NCBI GenBank assembly: GCA_026003195.1
Contig: BPGU01000002.1
Location: forward strand, 1-64,000
Direction of reading: 5' to 3'
DNA from: Armatimonadota bacterium
GTDB taxonomy: Bacteria > Armatimonadota > HRBIN16
DNA length: 64,000 nucleotides
Position numbers and translations under genes: made by a program. The notes below the pieces were generated by a model. That model was not told where the DNA came from and made no database searches. It saw nothing but the letters and a program-made list of their open reading frames with translations. Within the stretch, counting starts at the first letter, position 1; each line of letters opens with the position of its first letter. Of the stretch, positions 3,784 through 32,306 are shown one piece after another.

Positions 3784-3784
3784 C

Positions 3785-5964: not shown

Positions 5965-6042
5965 ACTACCTCTACCTCCCTTGCCACTCCCTCACACCAG
6001 AAGCGCGAAAAGGCTAAGAGCACTCACCATACGCGTGAGAAT

Positions 6043-8394: not shown

Positions 8395-8404
8395 CGTGCG
8401 ATCT

Positions 8405-9826: not shown

Positions 9827-9834
9827 CGCACCAC

Positions 9835-12652
9835 CTACCGGATGACCATCTGGAACCGCACAGCCGCCACTCCCCCCCGCCGCGATGGCAGGTATAGTCA
9901 CATCTATCTTGGTACGGTCCGTGGGATCAGGTAGAGTTGCTCCGTTCAGGGTCAGGGAGCCCTGAATGAATGTGGCATTTGTCGGCAGGTTGTGCACCAC
10001 TTGCACATTCCTCGCCTCCCCATCACCTATATTCCGCGCCTCCACCGTCACCGTCACCACATCCAGTGGTCTCGGATTAGGCTTGTCTACAGAGATAGAC
10101 ACCTGTACATTCGGCTGAGGGGCAGGAGTATACGTCGTCGGCAACAACACCGCCCCTTCATTCCTAAGCAGGTTAATTCGGTTGATCGGCACCGGATCCG
10201 TAGAACCATCCGCACGCACCCGATAGTAATACCCGTCCAGGTCAAACGCGGTGTAATCGTTGATGCCACGCTCGTCTTGCGGGATATCGTAGTCACCCGT
10301 GCGCACAAGCACTAACGCCTTCGTGTAACGCCGCGCGAAATACCATGTCTTGCCTGTATTGCCCAGAAAGTTGCCCTGACTGTCATACTTCGGAGCCTTG
10401 TCGGTATAGTGTATCACGAACAAGCCGGGTATTACCCCAGGGAACCATGAGCTCGGATAAGCTACCCATTGTGTATAGGGCGCGGATACCGTCGTGACAG
10501 GCACCCCGAAATCCAGTGTCGCCGCATCAATATAATACGCCTTCTGCTTCGGTATGCCAGCGACATAGTAACGGTTCGTGGAACTGTTCGGGTCGGTCAA
10601 GAACTCACCGTAGAAGAAGTTCTGGTGCCAGGCGTTCAGGAACAGCTTCTCCCTCTCCGGGTCCAGCACCAGCAGATACTGAGCCAGCGCACGCATCTTC
10701 TCGCGCTCCCACCATGCCTGGGTGTTTGTGGCTGCTGCGGTACCTTTCGTATACGCATACATCGGCACATGATACTGACCGCGTGCATACACACGATACG
10801 CCATCTCCGCGAAGAAGGTGTTTAAACTGCTGATATTGCCACCGGTGTAACTATGGTTGTATATCATGGTGATCTCGCGGTTGGCTATGGCAGGCGCGAA
10901 GTATATCCAGAGCAGGTCCGGCTGGGTACCCAGATACGAATTGCTCCAGGTATCAAATGGGGTGATGCTGATGAGGTCATTCGCGCACGACACCATACCC
11001 ATCTGCGTCAGCTTGATGCTCGCCTTCTCCATCACCTCGCCCATGCCAAGAGCGTACTGATAGAGGTCGTAACTACCCGCCTCGATAAACTGGATAGTGC
11101 CCGGAGTGACAGGTCTACCCGGCCATGTCTGGTCCTTGTAGTTGTCACAGTACCAACCCTCTATCCCAGGGTTTGTGTCGCGGATATATTCCAACCAGGC
11201 GCCAGAAATCCACTGCACATAATACGGATCAAACACATTGCACAGGAACCTCAAAATATCCGGCTTGAAGTACCATGCCCTGCTCCACCACTTGAACCTC
11301 GCAGACTTCGCCACGCCCAATCCTCCGCTCGTCGGTGGATTCGGGTTATACTCCGGGTCACCGTTGTTGGCGGGATTCGTCTCCCAGGAAGCATCCCAAC
11401 CGGGGATGACAGGCTTCCCGTTCGGACCAGGTTTCACGAAGTCCTCGTTCTGAATATCGTTCATGGTGTTGAAGGTGGGAGCCGTGCCAGTCTGCGTCAC
11501 CCGGAACCGAATATAGAAACCGCGTCTCCATGCTAGTGGATGATAATACTCGTCACGGTCACTATTATTGTGGTAGATACGGCTGCGCTTCCATTCCGTA
11601 CGTTCCTTCGGGGGGATGAACCGCACATACCCAGATTGACCGAACTTCTGACCGTTCAATACCGTGGTATCCTCCACCACGGTCAGAGGCGCCCAGCTTG
11701 TCGGCTTACCGTTCGCATCCACCCCATTGCAGTACTCCCATACCCCATCGTAGCCGCCGGATGCAGGCGTCTTCAACGTGAAGTATACGATATCAAATCT
11801 CAATGGGTGGCCGATTGCGATGAACTCATTCAACTGCGAAGGAAATTTGTAATTGTAGTAATCGAGTCGTTCCGGTCCCCATTTACCGTACCGAAAGAGC
11901 ATCAACATAATGGATTCGAACTTCCTGTCACCTACATCTGGGCTGATGTTGACTTCCGTATCCACCGCATAATGCATCGCAATATGCTCGTAACTGATGC
12001 CTTGCTGATCGCACCAGCTCTGCCAGTGCATGTTAGGCTCATACCATATAGCTGCATAGTTATTCGTGATGTTATCGTACCGAATCAGCACAGCATCTGG
12101 GTTCACTGCTTTCACCAGCGGAGCGTTCTGGTAGGCGTAGGCGATATCCAGGTCATAGTGCTGTGCGTTCCAATCGTGATAAGGCGCATTGGTGTCACCA
12201 GTAGTCCAGTCGCTCCCGATGATGTACGAACTATATCGTACTGTCGGCAGTACCTTGGAGAACCTGCGGAATGTCTTGAAGGTGCGCACATCGCTTACCA
12301 GATCGCTGCCACCGCCCTGCGGAGTGATACGCACACGGTAGTAATACGTAGTGTTCGGCTGCAGGTTCAGCAAGTTCACATAGTGGCGTGTGACATCGGT
12401 GTTGGGCCAGTCACGCCACTCTGGCAGAGAGACCATACCCAGCGCGGAGGTGGTACCGTATTCTACCGTCATCTTGCCAAGCACAGTAGTCACACACTTG
12501 ATGCGCGCACTCGTCGGCATCGCCCAGATCACCTCAGGATTCAGAGATTGGGCACAAGAAATTCCTGACAATGCAGTGAGTATAGCTACCAACCCAAGTA
12601 AAATGGTACCATACCACCATGCAGGCACGTGCGCCTTCCCTGGTCTATACAT
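9835..12652 (-). CDS. Large secreted glycoside-hydrolase-like protein with Fn3-like and DUF11/CARDB-like domains (apparent C-terminal frameshift)
   Basis: About 939 codons. A signal peptide (residues 1-35, ending GISCAQS) is followed by an Fn3-like domain like that of purple acid phosphatases (residues 38-130, LNLQPNTTYYYRVR). A TIM-barrel-like region follows, with IPGWDASW and a putative acidic site GWYCDNYKDQTW, interrupted by a beta-rich insert. Then come WYFARRYTKALVLVR and YYRVRADGS, resembling the end of the hypothetical glycosidase family GHL15, and a DUF11-like domain (SISVDKPNPRPLDVVTVTV). A run of seven C at 9872-9878 shifts the frame; one base fewer ends the protein in AAVRFQMVIR at TAG 9835. 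Paralogue: 29340-32306. Catalysis is inferred only. Confidence 0.78.
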
Positions 12653-12655
12653 GGT

Positions 12656-13603
12656 TCATCTGACCTCCCTAGTATCGTTGAGCCTCGCTATCCACCTATC
12701 GCGGTAGTATAGCACAATTCCTATCGGATACAGCACGCTGACGAACAGTCTTGCTATTGGTGAGGTGAGTTGCCAGCGCCGGCTAATACCCTGGTCTCGC
12801 ATGTGCCAATGGTAGCGGGTTAAGCCAGCCCCCAGCTTGATGAAGAAAACGGGATTACGCCAGAAATACTTCGACAAGTCGGCGTCAAGAGTGATAGCTG
12901 TCCATTGCCCCAAACCCTCTGCATACTTAATGTTCTGATTACCCGTCCGAATCAGCGAATTGGGCGTTTCATGCACCAGCAGTACCGGTTTGTTAATAAA
13001 GCGAGTAAGATAGCCGGCTCTTGCTATTTGTTCCCAGACAATGTTCAGCACCACATAGCCTTGTACGTCCTCGGGAAAAGGAAAACGCCTTAATAAGTCG
13101 ACGCGCATACACCCTGATTTATCACCCTTCAACTTCCATTTGTACAGCTCAACGTCCAGCACTGAAGCGTCAAAGCATTCATACGGGAAGGGATCTCCCA
13201 CAACCTGACCGTTTTCATAGACGCATAAGCCAGTGACCCCCACGAATCGTTCTCGCTGCTCCTCCGGTATTTCGTGCCAAACCCTGTAAAAGGTCTCCAG
13301 CGTGTCGGGGAAAAACTCATCGTCGCTATCGAGGTCTGCCAGCAGATAACCTTGCGCTTCTCGGGCTGCCAGGTTGAAGGCAGCCTTTTTGTGCTTGTGC
13401 GTCTGGTAGAAATAGCGTACAGGAAACCATGCTTCCCTAGCCCATGCCTCTATGAGATCACGAGTGTTGTCTGTCGAGCCATCATCAACGACCAGCCACT
13501 CGAAGTCGCGAAAAGTCTGCTGCAGCAGCGACTCAAACGGCTTGCGTAGTGTATGCGCCCGATTGTGCGTCGGTGTAAATACTGTGAAGAAAGGCGAAGC
13601 CAT
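12656..13603 (-). CDS. Glycosyltransferase family 2
   Basis: The 315-residue GT-A enzyme has VFTPTHNRAHTLRKPFESL at the N-terminus, WLVVDDGSTDNTRDLI, and the metal-binding DxD-type LADLDSDDEFFP. It probably transfers a nucleotide-activated sugar to a growing EPS oligosaccharide. ATG 13603 is preferred to ATG 13609 because GGGGAGGT abuts the latter and sits about seven bases from the former. Three bases separate its stop from the start of the large secreted protein, with GGGAGGT overlapping its last codons, so the two are co-transcribed. Confidence 0.9.
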   Translation of the reverse strand: MASPFFTVFTPTHNRAHTLRKPFESLLQQTFRDFEWLVVDDGSTDNTRDLIEAWAREAWFPVRYFYQTHKHKKAAFNLAAREAQGYLLADLDSDDEFFPDTLETFYRVWHEIPEEQRERFVGVTGLCVYENGQVVGDPFPYECFDASVLDVELYKWKLKGDKSGCMRVDLLRRFPFPEDVQGYVVLNIVWEQIARAGYLTRFINKPVLLVHETPNSLIRTGNQNIKYAEGLGQWTAITLDADLSKYFWRNPVFFIKLGAGLTRYHWHMRDQGISRRWQLTSPIARLFVSVLYPIGIVLYYRDRWIARLNDTREVR

Positions 13604-13648
13604 CCTCATACCTCCCCGTCTTTATCTTTCCTCAAAGCCCGCGTGGTT

Positions 13649-13867
13649 TCACACAGGATTCTTACCCAAAGTAACCCTGATCCCTGCCTGAGGGGAACCA
13701 TCTCGCATGGTATCAACAGGCAGGTTGACAGGCGATGTGACAGGGTCGTAAACTCCCTGACACTTGTGGGTGATCGCCGTGAGTCTGTCGCTACTGCTTG
13801 CGAAATAGCAGTAGATGTCATCGCCCAGGTTACGCGCCCCGTAGTATCCGAGCAACAATGCCCTCAT
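13649..13867 (-). pseudogene. Remnant of a CsaB/WcaK-type polysaccharide pyruvyltransferase
   Basis: A 72-codon frame starts MRALLLGYYGARNLGDD, the characteristic first residues of polysaccharide pyruvyltransferases, which are normally about 350 residues long. After residue 25 the sequence no longer resembles the family and the frame stops at 13649, just before the next glycosyltransferase. The N-terminal resemblance is seen directly; loss of the rest by deletion is inferred. The full enzyme would have added ketal-pyruvate to an EPS sugar. It overlaps the end of the degenerate flippase gene by 38 bases. Confidence 0.65.
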
Positions 13868-15311
13868 CTTTCCCCCTGTACCAAAAAGCGATGACGCTGG
13901 GCAAGGAATAGTGCCGCTGCCCCTGCCAGAGCAGCACGCCTACCAGCAAGGCACCTGTTCCTATACGCCCTGCCAGCTGCCACCAACCGACAGGACGTAA
14001 TAGCACATCCAATATGGCTGATAACAACATTAGCACCAGCGATGCCGATACAACGACTGGACTCAACCCGATATTCCGATACCGACGAGACATCATATAC
14101 GATGTAGCAGCCAGTGCAGATAGTGAGACCAGCGTAACCCCTGCAGCTCCCCACGCGCCGTATAGAGGGATGAGCCAGCCGCTAAGCAACAAACAAAGCA
14201 ACGCCGATAACATGTTCGCCCCAGCCAGAGCGTCCGTGCGGTTGCTCAGACGCGCCCCCACACTTAGCGGTCCCTGTGCGACAAAAAACCAATACGCTAT
14301 CGCCAGCGGAGGCACGTAGTCCGCCGCTCCCCAGAAACGCGGTGCGGACATCAGGTGTATCGTCGGGCGTGCAAACAGGATAATGCCGCTGGCAACCAGT
14401 GCAAACCCAAAGAGGATGAGAGTGGTTGCTCTCTGTAAATGATAGGTTCCGTCTTCTAGCGAACCCACGCGAAATGCCCAGGGACCCCAAGCCATCGACA
14501 CAATACCGTAAAACACACTGACCAGCATCCCAAACCGATACGCTAACGAATATAAGCCCAGTTCGCTCTCGGTAGCATAGCGAGTGAGAAAAAAGCGGTC
14601 ACTGAAGTGCAGGATGAATTGTGAAAGGCTGGCAGGAACCAGTGGCAACCCGTAGCGCAACACAGGTTCTCACCCACCGCATGTCGAACGCACCGCCATA
14701 CCGCAGCTCGCACCAGCACCCCGAGCACAAGCCGACCATGCCACTCGCGTTCAATGAGTCCGCTCAGCACTACCCCCCATACGCCCCAGCGTAGCCAGAC
14801 AACCAGAACAATGTTGGTGGTTAAGTGTGTGCAGCCAGTCTGAGCAACGAAATCGCGGTAAACCGCCATGCTTTGCCCTCCGCACGCCACAGGGTCAGGG
14901 GCAGCTCTATCAGGTTCCCCGCGAGCATACCAATCAGGGAAACGAGTCACGTAATGAGTGTATCGCTCGTGTCCGAAAGCGAGACGTGCTCAGATACGGC
15001 GAGGCGGGCAAAGTCAGCACAGGCTACCCGCTATAACCACCATCAGGTTGAGGTTGAACACCGTACCAATCAGACGCCGGCGCTCCTCCTCGTCCTTCGC
15101 CAGGTAGTAGTGGCGCAGCAATGCCTCAGCCAAACCGAGAGCTAGGAATAGACCGACAATGTCCACGAGGCGCACGAATAGTTTCAATGATGCCGTAGTC
15201 CGCCGGCGTCAACACCCGTGTGTACACGGGTATCATGATGAACCCTACCAGCCGACTGGCAATAGTGCCAACAGCATAAACGGCGGAGTCTTTGACGAGA
15301 GTTCTCAGCAC
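13830..15311 (-). pseudogene. Degenerate oligosaccharide flippase (Wzx/PST type)
   Basis: The N-terminus LRTLVKDSAVYAVGTIASRL at 15311 is nearly identical to that of the intact flippase at 23195. The frame is then disturbed near 15195, 15030, 14960, 14860 and 14670. Pieces such as GLAEALLRHYYLAKDEEE, LPLTLWRAEGKAWRF and WLRWGVWGVVLSGLI occur in different frames. From 14663 a clean 277-codon frame resumes with the family C-terminal half (YGLPLVPASLSQFILHFSDR to 13830). Total length matches the 499-residue intact copy, so disruption is by small indels. At least five of them next to an intact paralogue favour real decay. Confidence 0.88.
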
Positions 15312-15314
15312 GGC

Positions 15315-16502
15315 TTAGTACGTCCTCACCTTCTGTCCTTCGTCGCTGGTCGCCTGTGGAGACAACATGGGTGATCGCTCCCAACGCACACGTCCCCTGC
15401 CCCGGATAAAAGCGAAGGGAGCCACCGCCGCCGCCGCGTTCAGGCTGAGGAAAGACCCCGCCAGCCCCGCGAGGCGGAACCGCCGCGCCAGCGCAGGCAA
15501 CATCCACGACACTGCGCCCAACAGGTAGTATGCCGTCTGCGCCACCACCAGCGCGGCGCCGTAAGGTTGACCCAGCAGCATCCACGATGCCCCATACATG
15601 CCTATCAGCGCGTACGGCACCAGCAATCGGCACACCTTGTGTGACACAAACTGCCACCACAGGCGGTTCTTCCAGGGCACCAGCAGCCAGGGCGCCGCCC
15701 AGAGGAGCTGATAGTTGCCCGCCAGTGTGCGCACCTTACGCCGGAACTCCCTGTCGTAGGAAGGGGTTACCGTATCATACGCTTTCGCTTCGGCAACGAA
15801 AGCGATGCGATAGCCTCTGCGCATGATATGTAAAGGGATCCACATATCATCCAGTATCAGCCCTTCAGGCATCGGTGTGAAATGTTCGCGTCGGATGGCG
15901 TAAATAGCCCCGCTGCACTGCAGGGGCGAATCCATTTCCGCTTCCATCTGCCTCAACCACTTTTCATATCGCCAGTACGCACCCATTTCTCTAGGGGCGC
16001 CCTCGTGGTCAAGCAGTACCAGTTCTCCTCCGGCAGCCCCAACGCCCTCAGCGCGTAACGCTCGCACTAACTGGTGGATGGCGTCCGGTGCAAACTGTTG
16101 CCTTGCATCGGTAAACACGAGCACCTCACCCTCAGCCACCTCAACACCTCTGTTGAGGGCAAACGCCTTACCCCGTCGTGGAAAAACCTCTACGACCCGA
16201 ACACCTTCGTACTCTCGCGCGATATCCGCCGTTCGATCGGTGCATCCATCACAAGAGACCACAATGGACATCCTGTCTGCTGGATATTCGCAGGAAAGCA
16301 GATTTTCGATACGCCTGCGGATATTCGCTTCCTCGTTATGAGCAGCTATTAACACGCTGACAGAAGGCAGGTCTTGTGAGAAGTGCGTGTCTCGTCCGGT
16401 GCGTTGCCCACGACGCCCGTTCGCCAGCAACTTCAACAGGAACGGATAACCTGCGTAGGTGTAAGCGACAAACGCGAGGCAACCAGCCACCACCCACCAC
16501 AT
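15315..16502 (-). CDS. Membrane-anchored glycosyltransferase family 2 (processive-type architecture)
   Basis: The 395-residue protein has one N-terminal membrane helix, a GT-A domain (VSVLIAAHNEEANIRRRIEN, VVSCDGCTDRTADIA, metal site VFTDARQQFAPD, acceptor-side GAIYAIRRE and GLILDDMWIP) and RRKVRTLAGNYQLLW at the place of the Q/RxxRW motif, then about three C-terminal membrane helices. This layout is shared with icaA/hyaluronan-synthase-like and other lipid-linked EPS transferases. ATG 16502 overlaps the upstream ligase stop as TGATG; TTG 16505 is an alternative. Whether it is processive cannot be told. Confidence 0.88.
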   Translation of the reverse strand: MWWVVAGCLAFVAYTYAGYPFLLKLLANGRRGQRTGRDTHFSQDLPSVSVLIAAHNEEANIRRRIENLLSCEYPADRMSIVVSCDGCTDRTADIAREYEGVRVVEVFPRRGKAFALNRGVEVAEGEVLVFTDARQQFAPDAIHQLVRALRAEGVGAAGGELVLLDHEGAPREMGAYWRYEKWLRQMEAEMDSPLQCSGAIYAIRREHFTPMPEGLILDDMWIPLHIMRRGYRIAFVAEAKAYDTVTPSYDREFRRKVRTLAGNYQLLWAAPWLLVPWKNRLWWQFVSHKVCRLLVPYALIGMYGASWMLLGQPYGAALVVAQTAYYLLGAVSWMLPALARRFRLAGLAGSFLSLNAAAAVAPFAFIRGRGRVRWERSPMLSPQATSDEGQKVRTY

Positions 16503-17848
16503 CAAGCCTTCGCCTCCCGCACTTGTGGCAACAGGTGCGCCTGCGCTGCTGCTACCAGACCCATCAGGATGTACTGATAAGGATAGTAGGAAATAGAAAG
16601 GAAATACCCTGTTAACATGAGGTCCAGCAGACCGATCAGTGCTCCCATCCCCAGCGCATGTAATAACCAGTTCGGAGCGCGAGCCAGCTGCCTCGCTGCT
16701 TTCAAGCTTTTCAACCAGATGGTCAGAAAAACGATGAGTCCCAGCCCTCCCAGCTCAGCCAGCACGAGGTAATACATGTTGTGTGCCGTTTGAGATGCAG
16801 GCGCTCCGAACTCGCGGGCAAAATCTGCATAGTTCTTGAAGCCAATACCTGTAAAAGGATTGTGCTTGAACATACGCACCGCCGCCTTGCGATACTCCAC
16901 GCGATTCATAGCAGACTCATCTTGCTCGTAGTTCGTGATGGAACGGATGCGCTCCCGGTACTCCGCAGGCGCAGTGAACCACAAGGCACCAAACACTGCC
17001 AGACCGATCAAAGCTCCCAGCACCTTCCTCTTGGAGAACAGCCATAGCAGGAAGAGCAGAAAGACCAGCCCCAAGAACCCACCACGCGACCCGGTTAACA
17101 CCACTGCCACCAGTATCATCACCATTGCGGAACCATACACTATCTTCAGCCACTTCTTTGGGTCGTTCCAAAACAGGTAATAGCACAACGGAAAAAGCAT
17201 TAAAACATACGCTGCCAGGTCGTTGGGGTCGCCAAGCATGGAAGACTCTGCTCCGGCGCGCTGCAGCTGACCGCTCACTTCTACATTCCCCGTTTTGTAG
17301 CTATAGATAGTGGATATTGCTAACCAGAGTGCCATCCACCCCAGCATTCGCACAGCGAAGGTGATTTGCTTCTCACTACGCACAGCCATATAAATCATCC
17401 ACACCATAGCCACACTCTTCAAGAAGTCCTGTGCTCCACTCAAAGAGTTACCTCGCCATAGAGACAGAGGTACTGACAGCAGAATTGCCCCCCATAGCGC
17501 TATAAACCACTTCACGTACCAGCCTTCTATTAACTTTTGTCTGGTAAGCATCAGGCGCACAAACAACCCTGTCGAGGTGATGCTAGCGATGAACAAGGGA
17601 ATGCGCAGGAGCGCCAGCTGAGGGAAGAAGTCCATGGGGCGCATATAGTATAGGGCAATAAACGTCAGAGCCCCTGCATATGGGCTTACAAGGAAAACGC
17701 TTGCAGCCAGCAGCGCTATCACCGCGCCGAAGACGAGTTCAACGGGCACCAGAAGAAGAGCTATTCCCGCCGTCAACGCAATGCCTACGGTAACAGCCCA
17801 CACCAGTGCATCTCGGCGTACTGTGGAGACGCCTGCCTGCACCTCCAT
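16502..17848 (-). CDS. O-antigen ligase/Wzy-like polysaccharide polymerase
   Basis: The 448-residue integral membrane protein has about twelve hydrophobic segments and a large extracytoplasmic loop near residues 290-350 carrying NPFTGIGFKNYADFAREFG and ASQTAHNMYYLVLAELG. The G-x-G and H-N residues are the conserved loop features of the Wzy_C/WaaL family. Members join undecaprenyl-linked repeats into polymer or ligate them to an acceptor. ATG 17848 is chosen: it sits about seven bases after GGGAGGG and overlaps the upstream stop as TGATG. Polymerase versus ligase cannot be separated from sequence; as the only such protein in the locus, polymerase is the more economical reading. Confidence 0.86.
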   Translation of the reverse strand: MEVQAGVSTVRRDALVWAVTVGIALTAGIALLLVPVELVFGAVIALLAASVFLVSPYAGALTFIALYYMRPMDFFPQLALLRIPLFIASITSTGLFVRLMLTRQKLIEGWYVKWFIALWGAILLSVPLSLWRGNSLSGAQDFLKSVAMVWMIYMAVRSEKQITFAVRMLGWMALWLAISTIYSYKTGNVEVSGQLQRAGAESSMLGDPNDLAAYVLMLFPLCYYLFWNDPKKWLKIVYGSAMVMILVAVVLTGSRGGFLGLVFLLFLLWLFSKRKVLGALIGLAVFGALWFTAPAEYRERIRSITNYEQDESAMNRVEYRKAAVRMFKHNPFTGIGFKNYADFAREFGAPASQTAHNMYYLVLAELGGLGLIVFLTIWLKSLKAARQLARAPNWLLHALGMGALIGLLDLMLTGYFLSISYYPYQYILMGLVAAAQAHLLPQVREAKA

Positions 17849-18897
17849 CAACATCCCTCCCGACGCTTGAGCACCGTCCAGATGGTCAATAAGATAATCT
17901 TCAGATCCAGCCACAGCGACATGTGATACAGGTACATCAGGTCGTAGCGCAGCTTGTCGTAGACGGTAGTATGATACCCCCCCATGACCTGCGCCCAACC
18001 TGTGATGCCCGGTTTGATACGGTGCCGCTCATCGTAGTGGGGAATGCGCTCGCGATACTCCTCCACAAAGTTCGGACGCTCGGGGCGTGGTCCCACAATG
18101 CTCATGTGTCCCCATAACACATTGATAAACTGCGGCACTTCGTCCAGTTTCGTGGCTCGCAGAATGCGTCCCACTGTGGTAATACGCGGGTCTCCTTTGC
18201 TTGCCAGCACTGGACCCGTGATTTTCTCCGCATCGCGCACCATCGTGCGCAGTTTGAAGATATAGAACACCTTACCGTCTTTACCCACGCGCTCTTGCTT
18301 GTAGATAATCGGCCCCGGCGATGTCAACTTAATCGCAGCTGCCGCAAGCAGTAGAAATGGAAAACTGAACAGCAGTCCGAACGCGGCGAACAGGATATCA
18401 AACACCCGCTTCGCGACGAGCAACTGCTTGGAAGGAAGGCGTGGGGTAATATCCACTACCGGGACATCTCCCACCTTGTCCGCAACGGGACCGCTCAGCA
18501 CCACTTCCACAATATTCGGCACCACTTTGATCTTCACATGCCGATGTCCGTTGCTCACCAGCATCTCCGCAAGCCGCTGTTGCCATGTGGGAGCATAGGC
18601 GATCATCACCTCGTCCACCTGATACTTGTCCACGATGCGTTCTATATCCGCGCGCGAACCCAGCACTCGTAATCCCGTGACAGAGGCTTCTATCTCATCA
18701 TCCACGAAGCCGATAACCTCGTAGCCAGCCTCGTGCAGGTTGCGAGCGAGTGTGTGTCCCACTTCACCAGCTCCCACAATAAGCACTCTTCGCTTGCGCG
18801 CCATGTCGCTCTCCTGTGGCGTTACAGAAAGCAGTTGCTCCTCCTCCCTCATGGGTTGCTGCTTCCAGACTGCTGCTTCCGCGCGGGTCTCTCTCAT
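17848..18897 (-). CDS. Polyprenyl-phosphate sugar phosphotransferase (EPS initiating enzyme)
   Basis: The 349-residue protein has an N-terminal nucleotide-binding domain (RRVLIVGAGEVGHTLARNL) and a C-terminal bacterial sugar-transferase domain: KRVFDILFAAFGLLFSFPF (reentrant membrane helix), YKQERVGKDGKVFYIFKLRT, TKLDEVPQFINVLWGHMS, IVGPRPERP and KPGITGWAQVMGG. It transfers sugar-1-phosphate to undecaprenyl phosphate, the first step of the repeat unit. Unlike WbaP/WcaJ proteins it lacks the set of N-terminal membrane helices. GGAGGT lies five bases before ATG 18897, which overlaps the upstream kinase gene by ATGA. Confidence 0.93.
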   Translation of the reverse strand: MRETRAEAAVWKQQPMREEEQLLSVTPQESDMARKRRVLIVGAGEVGHTLARNLHEAGYEVIGFVDDEIEASVTGLRVLGSRADIERIVDKYQVDEVMIAYAPTWQQRLAEMLVSNGHRHVKIKVVPNIVEVVLSGPVADKVGDVPVVDITPRLPSKQLLVAKRVFDILFAAFGLLFSFPFLLLAAAAIKLTSPGPIIYKQERVGKDGKVFYIFKLRTMVRDAEKITGPVLASKGDPRITTVGRILRATKLDEVPQFINVLWGHMSIVGPRPERPNFVEEYRERIPHYDERHRIKPGITGWAQVMGGYHTTVYDKLRYDLMYLYHMSLWLDLKIILLTIWTVLKRREGC

Positions 18898-22845: not shown

Positions 22846-22970
22846 ACACTCCACCCCTTCATTCGCGTAAAGGTCAAGCGAACCAGAAACAGTCTACCCT
22901 TTTTCCCGCTACGGGGTCTACCGCCCCGTTTCTTCCCCCCACTTATACATAATGCAAGATTCGTACCATT

Positions 22971-22992: not shown

Positions 22993-23083
22993 AGCAGAAA
23001 AATCATCACTTTTTTCAGGTAAAACCAGCAAAATCACGAGTGGTCTATAAGGTATTTGTAAGATGCTCCACAAACATGTTGGC

Positions 23084-23112
23084 TTGACAACCCGTTCACA
23101 CTACGGTATGAT
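23084..23112 (+). promoter_or_regulatory. Sigma70-type promoter of the rightward EPS operon
   Basis: TTGACA at 23084-23089 and TATGAT at 23107-23112 are separated by exactly 17 bases. The predicted transcript starts near 23119, leaving about 75 bases of leader before the flippase GTG at 23195. The elements match the housekeeping consensus at 11 of 12 positions, so this operon is probably expressed at a good basal level unless repressed. Confidence 0.85.
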
Positions 23113-23194
23113 GGACGGGCAGAAAGCTCTGCAGTTCAACGGACCTTTCTGCCGAGGATCCAGAGCAACACCCCATGAGCGAAAGTGAGAGCAC

Positions 23195-24694
23195 GTGAGC
23201 AACATGCTCAGGTCCCTGGTCAAAGACTCCGCCGTCTATGCGGTCGGAGTGATTGCCACCCAGCTGGTGGGATTCATCATGATACCGATATACACGCGGG
23301 TACTCACGCCCGCGGATTACGGTGTCATTGAAACCATTGTCCGCCTCGTGGATGTGATCAATCTTCTCCTGGCGATGGGGCTGGCAGAAGCACTGCTACG
23401 CCATTACTACCTGGCGAAGGACGAGAAAGAACGCCGCCGCCTGATTGCTACCACCTTTTCATTCAACCTGATGATTATCGTGGTGGGCTGCGCGTTGACT
23501 CTGCCTCTGGCTCCCCAGCTCGCACACCTCGCCTTTGGACACGGACGGTACGCCACCTACGTGGCTGTCTGGCTGGTCGCTATGTTGCTCCAGAACCTGG
23601 CAGAGTTACCTCTGACCCTGTGGCGTGCCGAAGGGAAACCGTGGCGTTTTACAGGCATCTCCCTGTGCAGACTACTGACTCAGGTTACCGCCAACATCAT
23701 CTTTGTGGTGCTGCTGCGCTGGGGAGTATGGGGCGTCGCGATGAGCAATCTCATCAATGCAGCAGCCTGGTCTACTCTGCTGGGCATCGCTGTGCGCAGA
23801 AAATACGGAATCCTGATAGACACCTCGTGGTTGCGGCCGGTACTGCGATATGGTCTGCCGCTGGTTCCGGCTACACTCTCACAATTTATCCTGCACTACA
23901 GTGACCGCTTCTTTCTCGCTCGCTACGCCACTGAAAGTGAACTGGGTTTGTACTCGCTAGCGTATCGGTTCGGGATGCTGGTCAGCATCTCTATGCGCGT
24001 GGTCACAACGGCATGGTATCCCTGGGTATTCTCCACAGCAAAGAGCGATCAGGACATGATTTCCATCCGGCGCGCGACGTCATTGGTGCTCGTCGTGCTC
24101 GCTATGATCGCCGGAACGCTGATCCTGTGCACGGAAATCGTGCTGCGGTGGATGTCCGCTCCCCGTTTCTGGCAGGCAAGCCAGTATGTTTCACTCATCG
24201 CCATCGGATGCTGGTTCTTCGCTGCCCACATCCCGTGGAGCGTCGGTGCACGCCTGGTCAACAAGACCGAAGTGGTAGCAAAGGCACATCTTTGGACTGC
24301 AGGGGCAAGCCTGCTGGGCTATGCATGGTTCATCCCCCGTTACGGAGCATGGGGAGCCGCTGTGATGACCCTTCTGTCCTTCCTGTGCCTGTCTCTCACC
24401 TGTCTTATCTGGTCCGAGAAGACTATGCCTGTTCGGCAGGATGTGCACGCCATCTCTTTCGCTCTGTTGCTGATGGTCGCTTCCGCTTGCGGAGACGCTG
24501 TACTGCGTGCGCGAGGCGATGTGGGCACAGGCATCAGACTGATTGCGGCAGCGGGAATCTTCGCAGCAGCTCTCGCCTACGTCAACTACCGACTGAGCGA
24601 GCGAGCCGTCGAGAAGCTGTGGAAGCGCCTTTGGCATCGGATTCGCCTCCGCCAAGACCGTCATCCTGGTGACCACGAGAACACTCTGCCATGA
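23195..24694 (+). CDS. Oligosaccharide flippase (Wzx/PST family)
   Basis: The 499-residue protein has 12-14 membrane helices and begins LRSLVKDSAVYAVGVIATQL, typical of polysaccharide transporters of the MATE/MVF superfamily. Signature regions include VLTPADYGVIETI, LPLTLWRAEGKPWRF, and SDRFFLARYATESELGLYSL. It would flip undecaprenyl-linked repeats across the inner membrane. Start is GTG 23195 or ATG 23204. It is the intact paralogue of the broken flippase at 13830-15311 and probably the only working one. The stop overlaps the next start by ATGA. Confidence 0.92.
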   Translation: MSNMLRSLVKDSAVYAVGVIATQLVGFIMIPIYTRVLTPADYGVIETIVRLVDVINLLLAMGLAEALLRHYYLAKDEKERRRLIATTFSFNLMIIVVGCALTLPLAPQLAHLAFGHGRYATYVAVWLVAMLLQNLAELPLTLWRAEGKPWRFTGISLCRLLTQVTANIIFVVLLRWGVWGVAMSNLINAAAWSTLLGIAVRRKYGILIDTSWLRPVLRYGLPLVPATLSQFILHYSDRFFLARYATESELGLYSLAYRFGMLVSISMRVVTTAWYPWVFSTAKSDQDMISIRRATSLVLVVLAMIAGTLILCTEIVLRWMSAPRFWQASQYVSLIAIGCWFFAAHIPWSVGARLVNKTEVVAKAHLWTAGASLLGYAWFIPRYGAWGAAVMTLLSFLCLSLTCLIWSEKTMPVRQDVHAISFALLLMVASACGDAVLRARGDVGTGIRLIAAAGIFAAALAYVNYRLSERAVEKLWKRLWHRIRLRQDRHPGDHENTLP

Positions 24695-26901
24695 GAGGAT
24701 TGGGCATCAAAAAAAGGGTGAAGCAAGCCTTGCACTCCTTGCAAGCCATCGGCGAATATGGCAATTGCACCTATGCCATTGGCTACTCCGGGGGCACGTT
24801 GAACCGGTTCCTGTCCGGGATGGCGGACTTCCATCTGTCCGCAGAGCATACCCAGGTGTACGCTCTTCTGTGCAGATACTACCTGCAACATCGCTTCGAT
24901 GTGCTTGGTTCGGGATGGGTTCAGGTGAAACATGGGATGCGCTGCCGGGGTCTGGAAGGATACCGTTACGACATGGGCGATAGCATCCATCCCGATACAG
25001 ACGGACACTGGCTCACAGAGAGAATCTCGCCAGGCAACTTGCAGCAATCCCGACGAATATGGCAGCTCATTCAGGGAGATTACACCCCCATCGACTGGCA
25101 TCTGGACTTCAAGTCCGGCTACCGATGGAACGAAAAAACATGGTTCAAACTGGTTGCCCTTTCGCCTGCCAGGGGAGCGGACATCAAGGTTCCCTGGGAA
25201 CTATCGCGGATGCAGCACCTCCCACACCTTGCCATCGCCTGCGCGCTTTCCCGCAGGGGAGCCACAGGCTTTGAACCTGCCGATGTTTACGTACGCGAGT
25301 TTCGCAACCAGATTCTGGATTTCCTGGCGACCAACCCTCCCCGCTATGGTGTGAACTGGCGATGCACGATGGATGTAGCGATTCGGGTTGTCAACTGGTT
25401 AGTGGCGTATGACCTGTTCTGTGCTCTGGGAGTGGTCTTCGACGCACCTTTCATCGAGCTGCTGGTGCGCAGCGTTTATGAGCACTGCTGGCATATCCTG
25501 CACCATCTGGAGTGGAGCCCCCACTACCGCAACAATCACTATCTGGCGAACATCGCGGGGTTGTTGTTTTGCGCGGCGTACCTGCCAAGCACTCCTCTCA
25601 CCGACGCCGTTCTGGCGTTTGCGGTACAGGAGCTCATCACTGAAGTAGGCTACCAGTTCCATGCGGACGGGAGCAACTTCGAAGCATCCACCTGCTACCA
25701 TCGGCTCAGCGCGGAGATGGTGATGTGGTGCACGGCTCTGGTTCTGGGTCTTCCCGCAGAGAAGCGGGAAGCGCTCAGCAGGTATGACCACCGGCTGGTT
25801 CAGCGACTGAATCCCGCACCGATACCGGTCTATCCTGCGGGCGACGGAAAGCATGCTCACCCATTCCCGGAATGGTATCTTGACCGCCTGCATCGGATGG
25901 CGCGCTTCACCTGGCATCTGACCAAGCCGAGCGGTCAGGTCGCGCAGATAGGGGACAACGACAGCGGCAGGTTCATCAAGTTGCAGACGGCGTGGCATGT
26001 CCTGACCGTGCAGGAGGCAAAGACGCGCATCCGCACCCTTCAGGATTTCGGGGAACTGCCGGAAGACGCCCCGTATGTGTACGAGGACATACTGGACCAC
26101 TCTCACCTGCTGGCTTTCGCCTGTGGTCTGTTGGACGACGCAGATTTCAAAGCGTATGCACAGGATTGCCCCCTCGAATGGGCAGCCTCCAGAGCCTTGT
26201 GCCCTTACCCGCTGCCAAGACCTGCGGAGCGCGAAGAGGAAAACGTTCGCATCGGTCATAGACAGCACTGGGAAGCTTTTCAGCAAAAGGCGAAGCAGAC
26301 GTCGCAGAAACACGAGAGACGCTTCAAAGCTGCGAGGGGAGGCTTGCGCGAAGGATTACACCTTTGCATGTTTGCGGATTTTGGTGTATATGTCTTTCGG
26401 TCGCCAAGATTATATCTTCTGGTTCGCTGCGACAGGCAAAAGGCAGGTCAGCGATGGGGACATGCACACAACGACCAGATGCACATCGAGTTGTGGATGG
26501 ATGGACGAGACATTATTCGGGACCCGGGCACGTATCTGTATGAGGCGCTACCGGAGATGAGGAACCGCTACCGTTCGATACATGCTCACTTTACCCCCGC
26601 GTGGCAGGGGAGAGAGCCCCGTCCTCTCTCGAAGCGAGCTTTTGAGCATGTGGATTCGTTTCAGGCGGAGTGCCTCTATTTCGGGGAAGAAGGTATTCTT
26701 GTCAGGCATACAGCTTTTGGCTTCCCGATATATCGTCTGATAGTGATAGATGACAAAGAGGTGCTTTGCACGGATATTGCAGAAGATGTTCGCGCAAACA
26801 CCGGGCTTCACTTCACGTATGCGAAGTACCGACCTCACTTTTCGCCGGGCTATGGGGTGGTGCTGAACGAGTCCGCTGTCTCCGAGGAGGCGCTACAGTG
26901 A
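24691..26901 (+). CDS. Heparinase II/III family polysaccharide lyase
   Basis: 736 residues. The N-terminal part (about 100-420) is a helical toroid with WHLDFKSGYRWNE, RYGVNWRCTMDVAIRVVNWL, HYRNNHYLANIAGLLF and DGSNFEASTCYHRLSAEMV, matching the heparinase II/III N-terminal domain (Asn-His and Tyr-His residues of the lyase site). The C-terminal beta domain has GHAHNDQMHIELWMDGRD followed by IIRDPGTYLY, the hallmark of the family. No signal peptide is evident, so it may act from the cytoplasm or be exported otherwise. Its place between flippase and glycosyltransferase suggests it cuts or edits a uronate-containing EPS. Overlaps the next gene by GTGA. Confidence 0.9.
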   Translation: MRGLGIKKRVKQALHSLQAIGEYGNCTYAIGYSGGTLNRFLSGMADFHLSAEHTQVYALLCRYYLQHRFDVLGSGWVQVKHGMRCRGLEGYRYDMGDSIHPDTDGHWLTERISPGNLQQSRRIWQLIQGDYTPIDWHLDFKSGYRWNEKTWFKLVALSPARGADIKVPWELSRMQHLPHLAIACALSRRGATGFEPADVYVREFRNQILDFLATNPPRYGVNWRCTMDVAIRVVNWLVAYDLFCALGVVFDAPFIELLVRSVYEHCWHILHHLEWSPHYRNNHYLANIAGLLFCAAYLPSTPLTDAVLAFAVQELITEVGYQFHADGSNFEASTCYHRLSAEMVMWCTALVLGLPAEKREALSRYDHRLVQRLNPAPIPVYPAGDGKHAHPFPEWYLDRLHRMARFTWHLTKPSGQVAQIGDNDSGRFIKLQTAWHVLTVQEAKTRIRTLQDFGELPEDAPYVYEDILDHSHLLAFACGLLDDADFKAYAQDCPLEWAASRALCPYPLPRPAEREEENVRIGHRQHWEAFQQKAKQTSQKHERRFKAARGGLREGLHLCMFADFGVYVFRSPRLYLLVRCDRQKAGQRWGHAHNDQMHIELWMDGRDIIRDPGTYLYEALPEMRNRYRSIHAHFTPAWQGREPRPLSKRAFEHVDSFQAECLYFGEEGILVRHTAFGFPIYRLIVIDDKEVLCTDIAEDVRANTGLHFTYAKYRPHFSPGYGVVLNESAVSEEALQ

Positions 26902-28247
26902 ACCTGCTCCTTATTGCCTATCATTTCCCTCCAGACGGGGCAATCGGCGCGGTGCGCCCCTATCAGTTCGCCCGTCTGCTGCCGCAGTACGGCATTCAAA
27001 CCTGGGTGTTGACCGTCCGACCAGAGCACGCCCGCCAGCTGAATCCCGACTTTCAACCGGCTGGTATCGAGGAGGAACGGATCATCCGCACTGCAGTCTT
27101 CCCATCCCGACGCGATAGCATCCAGCGTTTCGCACAAATCATCAAGGCTCTGGTAAAATCCGGGCGAATGCAGCCAGCAGGAGGCAGCAATGCCATCACC
27201 CAGGTGGGTGCAGAGGTGCGACGTAGACCGCTGCTGCTCAGCTGCTTCTTGGAAATGCTGGAATATCCCGACCGCTACGCCGGCTGGTTCCAGCCAGCGC
27301 TACAAGCTGTGCAGGAGGTCACTCGCCAGGTTCAGTTCTCTGCAGTCTACAGCACTTCTCCCCCACGCACCTGTGCACTGATTGCGCGTTACATCGCCGA
27401 GCAGCACCACTTGCCCTGGATCATGGATATGCGCGACCCATGGATCACTCTGGTGGAGGGATGGCGCACCACCATACAATGCCCCCTCGTGCGCGCCTGG
27501 CATCAGAAGGCTCTCCACCAGTGCTTGCAAAGGGCGAGCGTTGTCCTCGCAAATACCCCGGTGCTGGCAGAGTATTTTGCCGGCGAGTACCCCCAGGTGG
27601 CGGAGAAGGTTCGCGTCCTGCCCAATGGCATCGCTGACACCGCTTTATCCGCACCAACCGCACATCTGTGCTCGGACAAACTGACCATCGGTCACTTTGG
27701 CACCATCTACGGATGCCGTACAACATATGACTTTCTGCAGGGAGTGAGTATGTGGCTGCAGGCAAATCCCCAGCACAGGGCGCGTCTGCAGCTGTTATTC
27801 TATGGAGAGAGCGCAGAGGACATCGCAGGGTTCGCCAGGCAGTTTGGCATGAGTGAAGTCGTGCATGTCCATCCCCCCGTCCCCAGGACAGAAGTATCGT
27901 CCATCATGGAGCGTTGCGGGGCTTTGCTCCTGCTTGCCCAGCAGCAACCGATGCAGGTGCCCGGTAAAGTGTATGAATATCTCGCAACCGGTAAGCCGAT
28001 TATCGCTATGACAGAGAGCAACAGCGCCACGGGTAGACTGCTGCAGGGCATTCCGCTGTGCTATATCGCCCAAAATGCGGAGCAAGTGTCTCATACGATG
28101 GAGCAGCTATGGCATCAATATAGTAGTGGTAAACTGTTCTGTGACCGATCCGATGACCTGGCACCTTTTCGATACTCACGATTGGTGGAACAGCTTGCCG
28201 GGTGGATCCGAGAGGCAGCGGAACATTCCCAGGAGACGTCACCATGA
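26898..28247 (+). CDS. Glycosyltransferase family 4
   Basis: The 449-residue GT-B enzyme begins MNLLLIAYHFPPDGAIGAVR (GTG start) and has IMDMRDPWI, ANTPVLAEYF, VLPNGIAD, ITIGHFGTIY-like donor-domain start and QVPGKVYEYLATGKPIIAM near the end. This pattern is common in WcaI/LPS-type GT4 enzymes. GTG 26898 is chosen because GAGGAGG lies seven bases upstream and it overlaps the lyase stop. An open frame continues upstream but overlaps the lyase gene by over 130 bases without resembling the family. The stop overlaps wecB by ATGA. Confidence 0.9.
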   Translation: MNLLLIAYHFPPDGAIGAVRPYQFARLLPQYGIQTWVLTVRPEHARQLNPDFQPAGIEEERIIRTAVFPSRRDSIQRFAQIIKALVKSGRMQPAGGSNAITQVGAEVRRRPLLLSCFLEMLEYPDRYAGWFQPALQAVQEVTRQVQFSAVYSTSPPRTCALIARYIAEQHHLPWIMDMRDPWITLVEGWRTTIQCPLVRAWHQKALHQCLQRASVVLANTPVLAEYFAGEYPQVAEKVRVLPNGIADTALSAPTAHLCSDKLTIGHFGTIYGCRTTYDFLQGVSMWLQANPQHRARLQLLFYGESAEDIAGFARQFGMSEVVHVHPPVPRTEVSSIMERCGALLLLAQQQPMQVPGKVYEYLATGKPIIAMTESNSATGRLLQGIPLCYIAQNAEQVSHTMEQLWHQYSSGKLFCDRSDDLAPFRYSRLVEQLAGWIREAAEHSQETSP

Positions 28248-29347
28248 GTTTACGAGTCATGCTGGTAGCGGGCGCGCGCCCTAACTTTATGAAAGTGGCA
28301 CCTATCTGGCACGCCGCTCAGCACAGAGAGGACGTGGACGTTGTGCTGGTGCATACGGGACAGCACTACGACCCCAACATGTCCGATGTCTTTTTCGCCG
28401 AGCTGGGTCTCCCCCAACCCGACGAGTTTCTGGGGGTAGGCTCGGGAACCCATGCGGAACAGACGGCAAGAGTCATGCTCGCTTTTGAACCCGTGCTGCA
28501 CAAACACCAGCCGGATGTGGTGGTAGTTGTCGGTGACGTCAACTCGACGCTGGCTTGCGCACTGGTAGCTGTGAAGCTCGGTATACGGGTCGCACACGTA
28601 GAGGCGGGCTTGCGCAGTGAGGATCGCAGCATGCCCGAAGAGATCAACCGCATTGCCACCGATGCGATATCGGACTACCTCTTCACGTCGAGCCGGGATG
28701 CCGACGCCAACCTGCTGAGGGAAGGTATCCCCGCCTCACGGATATTCTTCGTGGGCAACGTCATGGTGGACACACTGCTGGCGCACCGCGAGCAGGCTAT
28801 CCAGAAATCCGCGATATTGAACAGGCTGGGTATCGGCGAGAAAGAGTACGCGGTGATGACCCTGCATCGCCCTTCCAATGTGGATAGCGAAGACGCCTTG
28901 CACCGTATGGTAGAGATCATCCTCCGGACGCAGCAGCGCATCCCCGTCGTATTTCCCTTGCACCCACGCACCCGAACACGACTGGGCGAACGAGTGGAAC
29001 GCCTGGCAGAGGCGGGAGTAACGCTCACCGAACCGCTTGGCTATCTCGACTTCCTGAGGCTCATGTGCTCGGCACGCGTGGTGTTAACCGACTCGGGTGG
29101 CATACAGGAGGAAACCACCGTGCTGGGTATACCCTGCCTGACCCTGCGGGAAAATACAGAACGCCCGGTCACCCTGACCCAGGGCACCAACCATCTGGTG
29201 GGCACCCAGCCAGAGTACGTTGTCTCCATACTGGACAGGGTACTTTCAGGTTCCATCAGCAGACACCGCACCGCACCGGAAGGATGGGACGGACACGCCG
29301 CCCAGCGTATTATGGAAACGCTGGTGAGGCTGTGGACACGTGAGTAA
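28244..29347 (+). CDS. wecB: UDP-N-acetylglucosamine 2-epimerase (non-hydrolysing)
   Basis: The 367-residue enzyme carries the full WecB pattern: VAGARPNFMKVAPI at the start, VHTGQHYD, VVVVGDVNSTLACAL, HVEAGLRS, PEEINRI, VMTLHRPSNVD, PLHPRTR and TDSGGIQEE (UDP-binding). It interconverts UDP-GlcNAc and UDP-ManNAc. AGGAG lies before ATG 28244, which overlaps the upstream glycosyltransferase. No UDP-ManNAc dehydrogenase (WecC) is in the window, so ManNAc may be used directly or oxidised by an enzyme elsewhere. It points to N-acetylated sugars in the polymer, which would also give the deacetylase a substrate. Confidence 0.95.
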   Translation: MSLRVMLVAGARPNFMKVAPIWHAAQHREDVDVVLVHTGQHYDPNMSDVFFAELGLPQPDEFLGVGSGTHAEQTARVMLAFEPVLHKHQPDVVVVVGDVNSTLACALVAVKLGIRVAHVEAGLRSEDRSMPEEINRIATDAISDYLFTSSRDADANLLREGIPASRIFFVGNVMVDTLLAHREQAIQKSAILNRLGIGEKEYAVMTLHRPSNVDSEDALHRMVEIILRTQQRIPVVFPLHPRTRTRLGERVERLAEAGVTLTEPLGYLDFLRLMCSARVVLTDSGGIQEETTVLGIPCLTLRENTERPVTLTQGTNHLVGTQPEYVVSILDRVLSGSISRHRTAPEGWDGHAAQRIMETLVRLWTRE

Positions 29348-32306
29348 GCATCAGCTGTTCTTCTGTGAGATGACCCCGCGTTTGTGGAACAACCAGTCGG
29401 GGGTGCAATGTACGGTGCGTGCGGTGAAGGGTATCCTGCAGCTTCTGTTACTGGTCTTCCTGTCGGTGGTGGCGTATGCTCAGCAATCCGCGCAGGTCTT
29501 CCCATCTGCCAAATGGGCATGGTATCTGGTTCGTGAAGGACCTGATGGCGGATGGCCCGCTGGGGGAATGAGCAAGGACGACATCACCCGATGGATCGCT
29601 GCACATGGCGACTGGATGCTGGGAGCTTCTCCACGATACGGCTCCCCTTCCTGGAACCTGCTGTTAGAAGCAAACGCCAACCTGCGCTTCACTCTCTATG
29701 ATGAATGGTTCTACGCAGACCCGACCACGGCACACCCTAACTACAACCAGGTAGCTCACTGGAGCACCGGCTGGATCGACGGCAGAGTGGTGCAGATAGA
29801 GGATGAGTATCTCTCGCGCGGACAGAACCCTGAAACAGCATTCTTCCATGTCAGCACAGACTATCACTGGCAGGATGTCACGGTAAAGTTCTATGAGGAC
29901 CAGATTCTCTCCGCATGGAGACAGGAGGGTTCTACCAACACGGAGATACTCCAGATGGACCCGCTCTACCGCTGCGAGGGGCAGACGTTGTTTACCCTGC
30001 CCACCACAGTGGGAAGCTCGCTGATATTCGGCAGACCCGAGCCCTACGATAGCATCTATCTGGAGTTCGACACTCCCGCCTCCGAAGGGCAGTATGTGAT
30101 AGAATACGTGAACGGTACATCCTTCACCAGCAGCAATTTCGAGATGGCGAGATCCTGGGCGCCTGTGGCAATCATCTCTGACGGCACTAGCGGCTTCACG
30201 CGCAGTGGCTGGATACGTTTCCAGATGCCCAACCGCTGGACGCAGTGGAAGCGCTGCGGTATCAGCACGGCAGCCAGTAACACCGGCAAGTACTACTGGA
30301 TACGCATCCGCTGCACCGTACCACCGCGCAACACCCCCTCCTTGCGAGGAGCCTGGACAACCCCATACTATCGGTACCTTCCCAGCGTCAAAAACGTGGG
30401 CGAGGCGATATACCTTGGCTTCCCGTCTCCAGTCACCTCCGCAGAGATACAGCTTCTCTCGGCAGGAGATGGGGGCAGCTACGTGCTGGAGTACGCCAGC
30501 GCAGCCGGGACGGACGGTTCCACCAGTCAATGGTCGCCCCTGACCTCCGTCAGTGACGGCACCAACAGTTTGACGAAAACAGGCACCATCTCCTGGTCTG
30601 CGCCTGCAGGGTGGATACAGAGCAAGGTGAATGTGGGCAAGGCTCCCAAACGTTACTGGATACGGATACGAGTAACCTCCGCCCCCACCACACCCGCGGT
30701 CGTCGCCAGTGTTCGCGCAGGAGGACGGAGCCTGTACAGTCAGGAGATATACGCCATTCGATACCGACTGATCATACCCGGCTGGGACGAGCGCAATGAC
30801 AGCAACGGGGACGGCTACGTGGACGATCAGGAGTATGCTACCCTCGTCAACCCCGCAGCCACCGCACGCTGGGCGGCGCAGGCGAGAGTGGTACGGATAG
30901 GATGGCAAGGCGCTCTGAACTACGTGATCAACTGGGCGAAGAGCGAGTTGCGCGAGGTCATGTTGGGCTTCTACAATGCGCTGTACCTGGGGAACCCGGA
31001 TACGCACGTGCACGGGTTACTGAGCGATAGCCTGGTGATGCCCATCCCTTCCCCGATGCTGACTGCAGCCGTAGAGAGTTCCGACGCCCAGCAGTGGGAG
31101 TCCATGTGGCTGGAAGCGCATCGCTATCTTCGCCACAGCGGGAAGAAGATTGGCGGGAACCTGGGCTCGTATGAAGTATTCGCTCCCCTGTCTCAACAGC
31201 AAGCGTATCTGGATAACGGATTCTATACGCACCTGTATAATGATTTCGTGATGCATGAACACTACCCACAGGGACGTATTTATCAGACCACCGAAATCTC
31301 CTTCCGTCGTCGGCTGTTGAACATCAGCATGGAAACCGGGGCTGGGCTGGATCAGGTTTTGCAGTTCAACATGGCAGGTGATGCTCTGCTGCGCATCGGC
31401 GGTGGTACGGACGCAACAGCCTGGAAGCGTTTCCAGGAACATGCGCTGGCCTTCTTCTATCTGGTTCAGCATCCGCAACGCAGCTACCTGAACATCTGGC
31501 AGACAGCAGTCTACGGTGCAGATGTCATGGACACACCAATCGGCACGATGCCCAAACCCATGGCGTTTCAGCCCACCGCAATGCTTCAGGTGGACATCGG
31601 GCAGCCCGCCAACTCCATACCGAATGGTTTTGCCCCCGTGCAGTTGATGTATCGTGAGGGAGGGGGCTTTCCCGACAACATTGTGGTGGGAGATACCGCT
31701 TCGCCGGTGCTCAACAACAACTACCCGAAGCTGGCAGGGAAGCCGGTCTACCCCACGTACGTCTTTGCGCTGGCGTCCGGCACCCTCCCTAACAGACCAT
31801 CTACAACTTACACTGTTTTCGCACGCAAGTACACGAAGGGTCTGGTGCTCTTGAAGATGACCAGCAAGTACGAGGTGTCGGATACCGGTGATGGCTCCGC
31901 CACAACCCACCCGTTACCGGGGGTATATCGTCGTGTCCGCTGGGACGGCACGCTAAGCGAACCCATTACCGAAATCACTCTGAGAGGCATGGAAGGCGCC
32001 ATACTGGTAGACGCTTCTCAAACAGCCAGCGACCTGCAGATTTCCACCAGCGTAGACAAACCCTCTGCGCGCCCCGGCGAAGTGCTCCGGGTCACCGTCA
32101 CGGTGTCAAACCCCAGCGCTCAGGAGGTCAGAAACGCCGTAATCACACTGCCCCTCCCCAGCAGCATGACCTATCGGCGTGGAAGCCTGAAGGTGAACGG
32201 TAACGCGGTGTCCGATCCGTCCGACCCTTCGCGGGTGCAGGTTACCCTGCGGTCTGTTGCTTCCGGTGGTAGCGCACGTGTGGAATTCGAAGCAACCATA
32301 AAGTAG
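29340..32306 (+). CDS. Large secreted glycoside-hydrolase-like protein with DUF11-like C-terminal domain
   Basis: 988 residues with a signal peptide (hydrophobic LQLLLLVFLSVVAYAQ near residues 33-48). Two beta-rich repeats (about 215-345 and 355-475) share W-x-P, SDGT and YWIRIR motifs. A TIM-barrel-like segment follows, with IPGWDERNDSNGDGYVDDQE and a putative acidic site HGLLSDSL, then YTVFARKYTKGLVLLK and YRRVRWDGT (GHL15-like end) and a DUF11-like domain (STSVDKPSARPGEVLRVTV). The same order occurs in 9835-12652. It may degrade or remodel the EPS outside the cell, or be structural; catalysis is not shown. GTG 29340 overlaps wecB by eight bases; ATG 29370 is also possible. Confidence 0.82.
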   Translation: MSKHQLFFCEMTPRLWNNQSGVQCTVRAVKGILQLLLLVFLSVVAYAQQSAQVFPSAKWAWYLVREGPDGGWPAGGMSKDDITRWIAAHGDWMLGASPRYGSPSWNLLLEANANLRFTLYDEWFYADPTTAHPNYNQVAHWSTGWIDGRVVQIEDEYLSRGQNPETAFFHVSTDYHWQDVTVKFYEDQILSAWRQEGSTNTEILQMDPLYRCEGQTLFTLPTTVGSSLIFGRPEPYDSIYLEFDTPASEGQYVIEYVNGTSFTSSNFEMARSWAPVAIISDGTSGFTRSGWIRFQMPNRWTQWKRCGISTAASNTGKYYWIRIRCTVPPRNTPSLRGAWTTPYYRYLPSVKNVGEAIYLGFPSPVTSAEIQLLSAGDGGSYVLEYASAAGTDGSTSQWSPLTSVSDGTNSLTKTGTISWSAPAGWIQSKVNVGKAPKRYWIRIRVTSAPTTPAVVASVRAGGRSLYSQEIYAIRYRLIIPGWDERNDSNGDGYVDDQEYATLVNPAATARWAAQARVVRIGWQGALNYVINWAKSELREVMLGFYNALYLGNPDTHVHGLLSDSLVMPIPSPMLTAAVESSDAQQWESMWLEAHRYLRHSGKKIGGNLGSYEVFAPLSQQQAYLDNGFYTHLYNDFVMHEHYPQGRIYQTTEISFRRRLLNISMETGAGLDQVLQFNMAGDALLRIGGGTDATAWKRFQEHALAFFYLVQHPQRSYLNIWQTAVYGADVMDTPIGTMPKPMAFQPTAMLQVDIGQPANSIPNGFAPVQLMYREGGGFPDNIVVGDTASPVLNNNYPKLAGKPVYPTYVFALASGTLPNRPSTTYTVFARKYTKGLVLLKMTSKYEVSDTGDGSATTHPLPGVYRRVRWDGTLSEPITEITLRGMEGAILVDASQTASDLQISTSVDKPSARPGEVLRVTVTVSNPSAQEVRNAVITLPLPSSMTYRRGSLKVNGNAVSDPSDPSRVQVTLRSVASGGSARVEFEATIK

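Follow-up and report, generated by a model that had tools for sequence, protein, structure and literature searches.

Two predicted exported relatives of GH168 endo-1,3-fucanases in a divergent exopolysaccharide locus of an Armatimonadota bacterium

Why would an exopolysaccharide (EPS) locus encode two very large, glycosidase-like proteins, and on which polymer might they act? The question is raised by a 64,000-nucleotide stretch of an Armatimonadota genome (contig BPGU01000002.1; hereafter the window), in which a first-pass annotation had recognized two paralogous proteins of this kind, here called A and B.

A divergent EPS locus with one such protein in each arm

The locus consists of a minus-strand arm (22854-1529) and a plus-strand arm (23195-32306) whose point of divergence is the gap at 22.9-23.2 kb. 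As annotated, each arm carries one of the two proteins, A among glycosyltransferases (GTs) and B after WecB. Starting from its EpsH end, the minus arm encodes:

21985..22854, minus strand: exosortase EpsH
21302..21988, minus strand: EpsI-like protein (DUF3485)
18894..21305, minus strand: Wzz-like chain-length protein with a kinase domain
17848..18897, minus strand: priming sugar transferase
16502..17998, minus strand: Wzy_C-type polymerase/ligase
15315..16505, minus strand: GT2 glycosyltransferase
12656..13609, minus strand: GT2 glycosyltransferase, within the exchanged segment described below
9866..12652, minus strand: protein A, with a signal segment, Pur_ac_phosph_N, a predicted GHL15/GH168-like barrel with one beta insert, a C-terminal beta domain and DUF11
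8720..9826, minus strand: GT4 glycosyltransferase, in this genus always directly after the gene of the A/B family (GHL gene)
1529..8547, minus strand: remaining genes of the arm (GTs, a truncated GT4, FkbM methyltransferase, NAD-dependent epimerase, polysaccharide-deacetylase-like protein, GT4)

The plus arm encodes:

23195..24694, plus strand: Wzx-type flippase
24691..26901, plus strand: heparinase II/III-like protein
26766..28247, plus strand: GT4 glycosyltransferase
28202..29347, plus strand: UDP-GlcNAc 2-epimerase, WecB-like
29340..32306, plus strand: protein B, 988 aa in an open frame, with a signal segment, a predicted GHL15/GH168-like barrel with two beta inserts, a C-terminal beta domain and DUF11

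Two further genes of the minus arm appear to be incomplete. Between the GT2 genes lies a shortened Wzx (13830-14663) that retains the C-terminal part only, at a position where sister loci have an intact flippase, and the GT4 gene at 6347-7192 is truncated or frameshifted, with only about 131 aa aligning to the 380-aa versions of sister loci. Beyond the locus, the window encodes a 1536-aa protein (36418-41028) that combines a Rha78A-N Ig domain with some ten LVIVD repeats.

EpsH and EpsI are encoded together with EPS genes here, as in the PEP-CTERM/EpsH exosortase loci, in which epsH genes are almost always situated among EPS genes (PMC1569441), and the genome holds 24 PEP-CTERM matches. In contrast to that system, A and B are without a PEP-CTERM tail, as none of the 24 matches falls in either protein, and in the literature found, descriptions of that system do not include glycosidases of this clade. 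Both proteins have hydrophobic N-terminal segments, recognized by eye in the sequence, and are predicted to be exported.

While protein B occupies exactly the open frame that had been annotated, the boundary of A needs correction. The gene is present and reads from 12652 on the minus strand, but the end proposed for it, 9835, is the stop of a neighbouring frame, and A itself ends at about 9866. No stop is found there in its own frame, which continues through a G7 run into the GT4 gene and ends at 8720, forming an open frame of 1310 aa. In the neighbouring frame after the G7 run, A ends in ...AAVRFQMVIR, followed by a TAG at 9837-9835. Since the A ortholog of sister genome G180 terminates normally in ...ATVVFQMVIR, ahead of a GT4 gene that is separate from it, the fusion of the two frames is probably due to a one-base indel, either real or an assembly error. 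The domains of the two proteins are as follows:

12272..12517, minus strand: Pur_ac_phosph_N (fibronectin-like) domain of A, aa 46-127 (PF16656, E 7e-8)
11495..11851, minus strand: single beta insert of A, about aa 268-386 (BLASTP of A against B, and A model)
9872..10108, minus strand: DUF11 domain of A, aa 849-927, shortened by the frame change (PF01345, E 4e-7)
9872..9878, minus strand: G7 run where the frames of A and the downstream GT4 join (sequence and comparison with G180)
29991..30317, plus strand: first beta insert of B, about aa 218-326 (BLASTP of A against B, and B model)
30366..30683, plus strand: second beta insert of B, about aa 343-448 (BLASTP of A against B, and B model)
32031..32300, plus strand: DUF11 domain of B, aa 898-987 (PF01345, E 4e-7)

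The DUF11-like domain ascribed to both proteins was recovered by its Pfam profile. The shared order of motifs also holds in that all quoted motifs are there, except that the beta insert is doubled in B and single in A.

Kinship with GHL15 and the GH168 endo-1,3-fucanases

Homology of A and B goes far beyond chance. BLASTP aligned them across the C-terminal 300 aa (115 bits, E 3e-30), with the beta insert as a separate matching block (E 2e-12), and a family HMM built without either protein gave best-domain scores of 272 bits for A and 393 bits for B. Paralogy is thus borne out in a broad sense. In the tree, A and B belong to distinct deep clades, and since sequences of other phyla fall between these, the two are old paralogs or separate acquisitions rather than products of a recent duplication. 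B groups most closely with its ortholog in sister genome G181 (75% identity) and A with that of G180 (63-65%). A search for the pair in other EPS loci recovered it in G181 only, which has a truncated A and, in addition, a third paralog.

The annotation had likened the proteins to GHL15 and regarded their family, fold and activity as undescribed. The Pfam profile of GHL15 (PF14885) matches neither A nor B, but the likeness gains indirect support from core relatives from this phylum that share the motif order, of which five of six score 36-44 bits, above the Pfam cut-off of 27 bits. These core relatives differ from A and B in carrying Rha78A-N and CBM_4_9 domains in place of the beta inserts and DUF11. 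A profile of 23 family members searched against the PDB matched 9jos/9jp2/9jp3 (E 2e-8) and the endo-1,3-fucanase 8ya6 (E 8e-4), and 9jos was still matched by a control profile that excluded A and B (E 1.3e-6). It is the profile rather than B alone that links the family to GH168, as phmmer with B against the PDB returned no match up to E 1. By these comparisons, A and B are distant relatives of the GH168 endo-1,3-fucanases within a wide GHL15/GH168-related clade. The fold, then, is a described one, that of the GHL15/GH168 superfamily, while the clade and its activity are undescribed in the literature found; a search for GHL15 likewise found no described activity.

A TIM barrel had been expected in both proteins. 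The B model (mean pLDDT 72, pTM 0.70) shows the barrel pattern, with strands 557-562, 603-607 and 640-642 alternating with helices, and beta-rich inserts at about 190-460. Foldseek matched it to GH168 FUN168D, FUN168E and MeGH168 with probability 1.00 and a TM of about 0.4 by target length. The first-ranked match belonged to phage LME-1 (a tail-complex chain) and was discarded with an rmsd of 20, and a viral fold search gave partial, low-TM matches only. The A model is poor (pLDDT 64, low over 505-585), so for A we infer the barrel from homology.

An acidic pair shared between the two proteins was found, and it aligns with the catalytic pair of GH168:

11144..11146, minus strand: A D503 (GWYCDNY), aligned with the catalytic Asp of GH168 (FunA D206)
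10874..10876, minus strand: A E593 (NREITM), aligned with the catalytic Glu of GH168 (FunA E264), by alignment only, in a low-confidence model
31026..31028, plus strand: B D563 (HGLLSDSL), aligned with the catalytic Asp of GH168
31257..31259, plus strand: B E640 (MHEHYP), HMM-aligned with the catalytic Glu of GH168 (FEHYN)

These placements come from the HMM; MAFFT concurs for A and for D563, with the Glu of B shifted four residues. In the B model, D563 and E640 lie at or beside strands. Of 25 full-length relatives, all have the Glu and 24 have the Asp. The aligned residues of the deposited 8ya6 chain are Asp 221 and Glu 279, 58 apart, as are D206 and E264 of FunA, whose D206E and E264Q variants are inactive (PMC7401878). 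Both pairs also align with D167 and E237 of MeGH168, the predicted nucleophile and acid/base of a retaining mechanism (PMC12210190). The position of the Asp in 9jos is occupied by Ala in 9jp3, meaning that it was mutated by the depositors. IPGWD is not the acid site, since it opens an EF-hand-like loop (WDPANDRNGDGxVDDxE) in most relatives; the acidic residue that is conserved is the Asp in GWYCDNY / HGLLSDSL. Large beta inserts, this loop and DUF11 set the proteins apart from GH168.

It is possible, if rather improbable, that A and B do not cut at all and instead serve as scaffold or matrix proteins, with a barrel and beta domains that bind nascent or exported EPS. Their several beta domains and DUF11 would suit such a role, and A, the most diverged member, has its acid/base residue assigned from alignment alone. 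Retention of the Asp-Glu pair through deep divergence argues for catalysis.

Some matches were set aside because they share a single segment with the family. In genomes G074 and G075 only the beta insert is common, within a phage-type baseplate J protein, and in G168 and G171 only a dockerin/EF-hand-like segment. A genome scan with B alone as query found nothing, its patterns being too specific. On L175 (8332-10494) and L176 (3963-6122), the beta insert lies within a baseplate J-like phage-tail-type protein (TIGR02243), which marks it as a mobile module.

Varied genomic settings of the family

Within the genus, the GHL gene lies inside an EPS operon in four genomes, and in two genomes of another family of the phylum (G191 and G192) it is found among Wzz, priming-transferase and GT genes. 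The genome scan also recovered the family from Endozoicomonas, Lysobacterales, six Photobacterium, Verrucomicrobia, Bacteroidetes, Patescibacteria MAGs, an archaeal MAG and Zipacnadia, which NCBI assigns to Armatimonadota. Outside this phylum, most relatives are encoded away from EPS loci. A single GHL-clade gene occupies one constant chromosomal place in the Photobacterium loci examined, five in number (L187, L189, L190, L195, L197), among housekeeping genes that we read as riboflavin, nusB, thiL, pgpA and dxs genes. Such varied contexts across taxa suggest that the family has several jobs, of which polysaccharide may be the common denominator.

These settings bear on whether A and B might instead be catabolic, cutting foreign polysaccharides of algal, plant or neighbour origin as food, with their place in an EPS locus being incidental. 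GH168 enzymes are fucoidan degraders, relatives occur in marine bacteria, and the Lysobacterales member adjoins an alginate lyase. Nevertheless, GH168 genes belong to a fucoidan utilisation locus, whereas no uptake or catabolic genes lie beside A or B and their position inside a biosynthetic operon is constant. We regard this explanation as unlikely.

One relative is viral. Phage contig L182 (IMGVR_UViG_3300033153_011703) encodes, in a structural cluster near a DNA-ejection protein (phrog_598), a protein of the GHL clade (4467-6479) that also has the beta insert. Searches of phage records with B and with this protein returned nothing useful, and the phage link therefore comes from one contig. 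Together with the rapid replacement of alleles described below, this relative would fit secreted depolymerases that strip the coats of competing cells. We consider such a function very improbable for A and B, given that it has a single phage member behind it and that genes placed in the biosynthetic operon more probably serve the polymer of the cell itself.

Exchange of alleles at the slot of A and its interpretation

Comparison of the window with contig 4 of sister genome G184 delimits an exchanged segment:

9020..14464, minus strand: exchanged segment, with no DNA similarity to G184 contig 4 between flanks that are 87-98% identical

DNA identity is 93-98% over 2.4-8.4 kb and 87% over 14.5-18.0 kb, with none over 9.0-14.5 kb. 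The proteins follow the same pattern, with 96% identity for Wzy, 99% for the epimerase and 95% for the GT4 at 7189, against 36% for the GHL protein and 54% for the adjacent GT4; the assemblies are drafts and two G184 copies lie at contig ends, so the comparison is to be read with care. In five loci of the genus, including the window, the GHL gene stands directly before the same GT4 gene, and its alleles at this slot are 31-38% identical to one another, except for A and that of G180 (65%). In G181, G182 and G184 contig 7, a different allele is preceded by leftover 5' pieces of an A-type gene. The gene of B behaves differently, being stable in G181 within flanks of 75-93% identity. GC content along the exchanged segment shows no clear shift.

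In sister loci, the exchanged segment contains cytidylyltransferase and NeuB genes, which point to nonulosonic acid in those coats. The cytidylyltransferase, which has a HAD domain, and NeuB are 90-97% identical in the sister EPS loci L158, L155, L157 and L160, and NeuB has only distant family matches in the window genome, located elsewhere. The GHL allele does not track this cassette, as G180 has the A type with NeuB and the window has A without it.

We propose, with a probability of about 0.55, that A and B are secreted endo-glycanases of the retaining type whose substrate is the EPS of the producing cell itself, and that A is exchanged cassette-wise with EPS genes. Homology, the modelled barrel of B, the conserved catalytic-type pair, the locus context and the exchange of alleles are observations; the activity, its mechanism, the own-EPS substrate and the matching of cutter to polymer are what we infer from them. 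The enzymes would hydrolyse glycosidic bonds inside the polymer chain through a two-step retaining mechanism, with the Asp as nucleophile and the Glu as acid/base. Their target would be the EPS of this exosortase-type Wzx/Wzy locus, which might be trimmed, released or cleared. Exchange of the A slot as a block with glycosyltransferase genes could keep the cutter matched to the polymer. That A lies in a stretch replaced wholesale in sister bacteria suggests that the cutter changes with the coat and strengthens the own-polymer assignment, although such exchange would be equally expected for a binding protein.

Secreted proteins of a polysaccharide-cutting type that are encoded with biosynthesis genes have precedent in the EPS-operon hydrolases PelA, PgaB and AlgL (PMC9894940, PMC5933820, PMC8829089); the PelA hydrolase shapes secreted Pel (PMC9894940). 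These belong to other enzyme families, whereas A and B come as a pair in a single locus and one of the two undergoes allele exchange.

More tentatively, EPS loci of Armatimonadota may hold a serotype-like cassette: a GH168/GHL15-related endo-glycanase would be swapped as a unit with GT (and often nonulosonate) genes, giving each coat type its matching cutter. If cutter and coat are indeed exchanged together, natural pairs of alleles would make polymer specificity directly testable.

Collectively, our analysis connects a clade of uncharacterised, hypothetical hydrolases with GH168 through sequence, a modelled fold and the catalytic pair, and it names candidate residues for mutation. It suggests EPS biosynthesis as a role of the GHL15/GH168 superfamily, and enzymes of the A/B type could serve as depolymerases of biofilm polymers.
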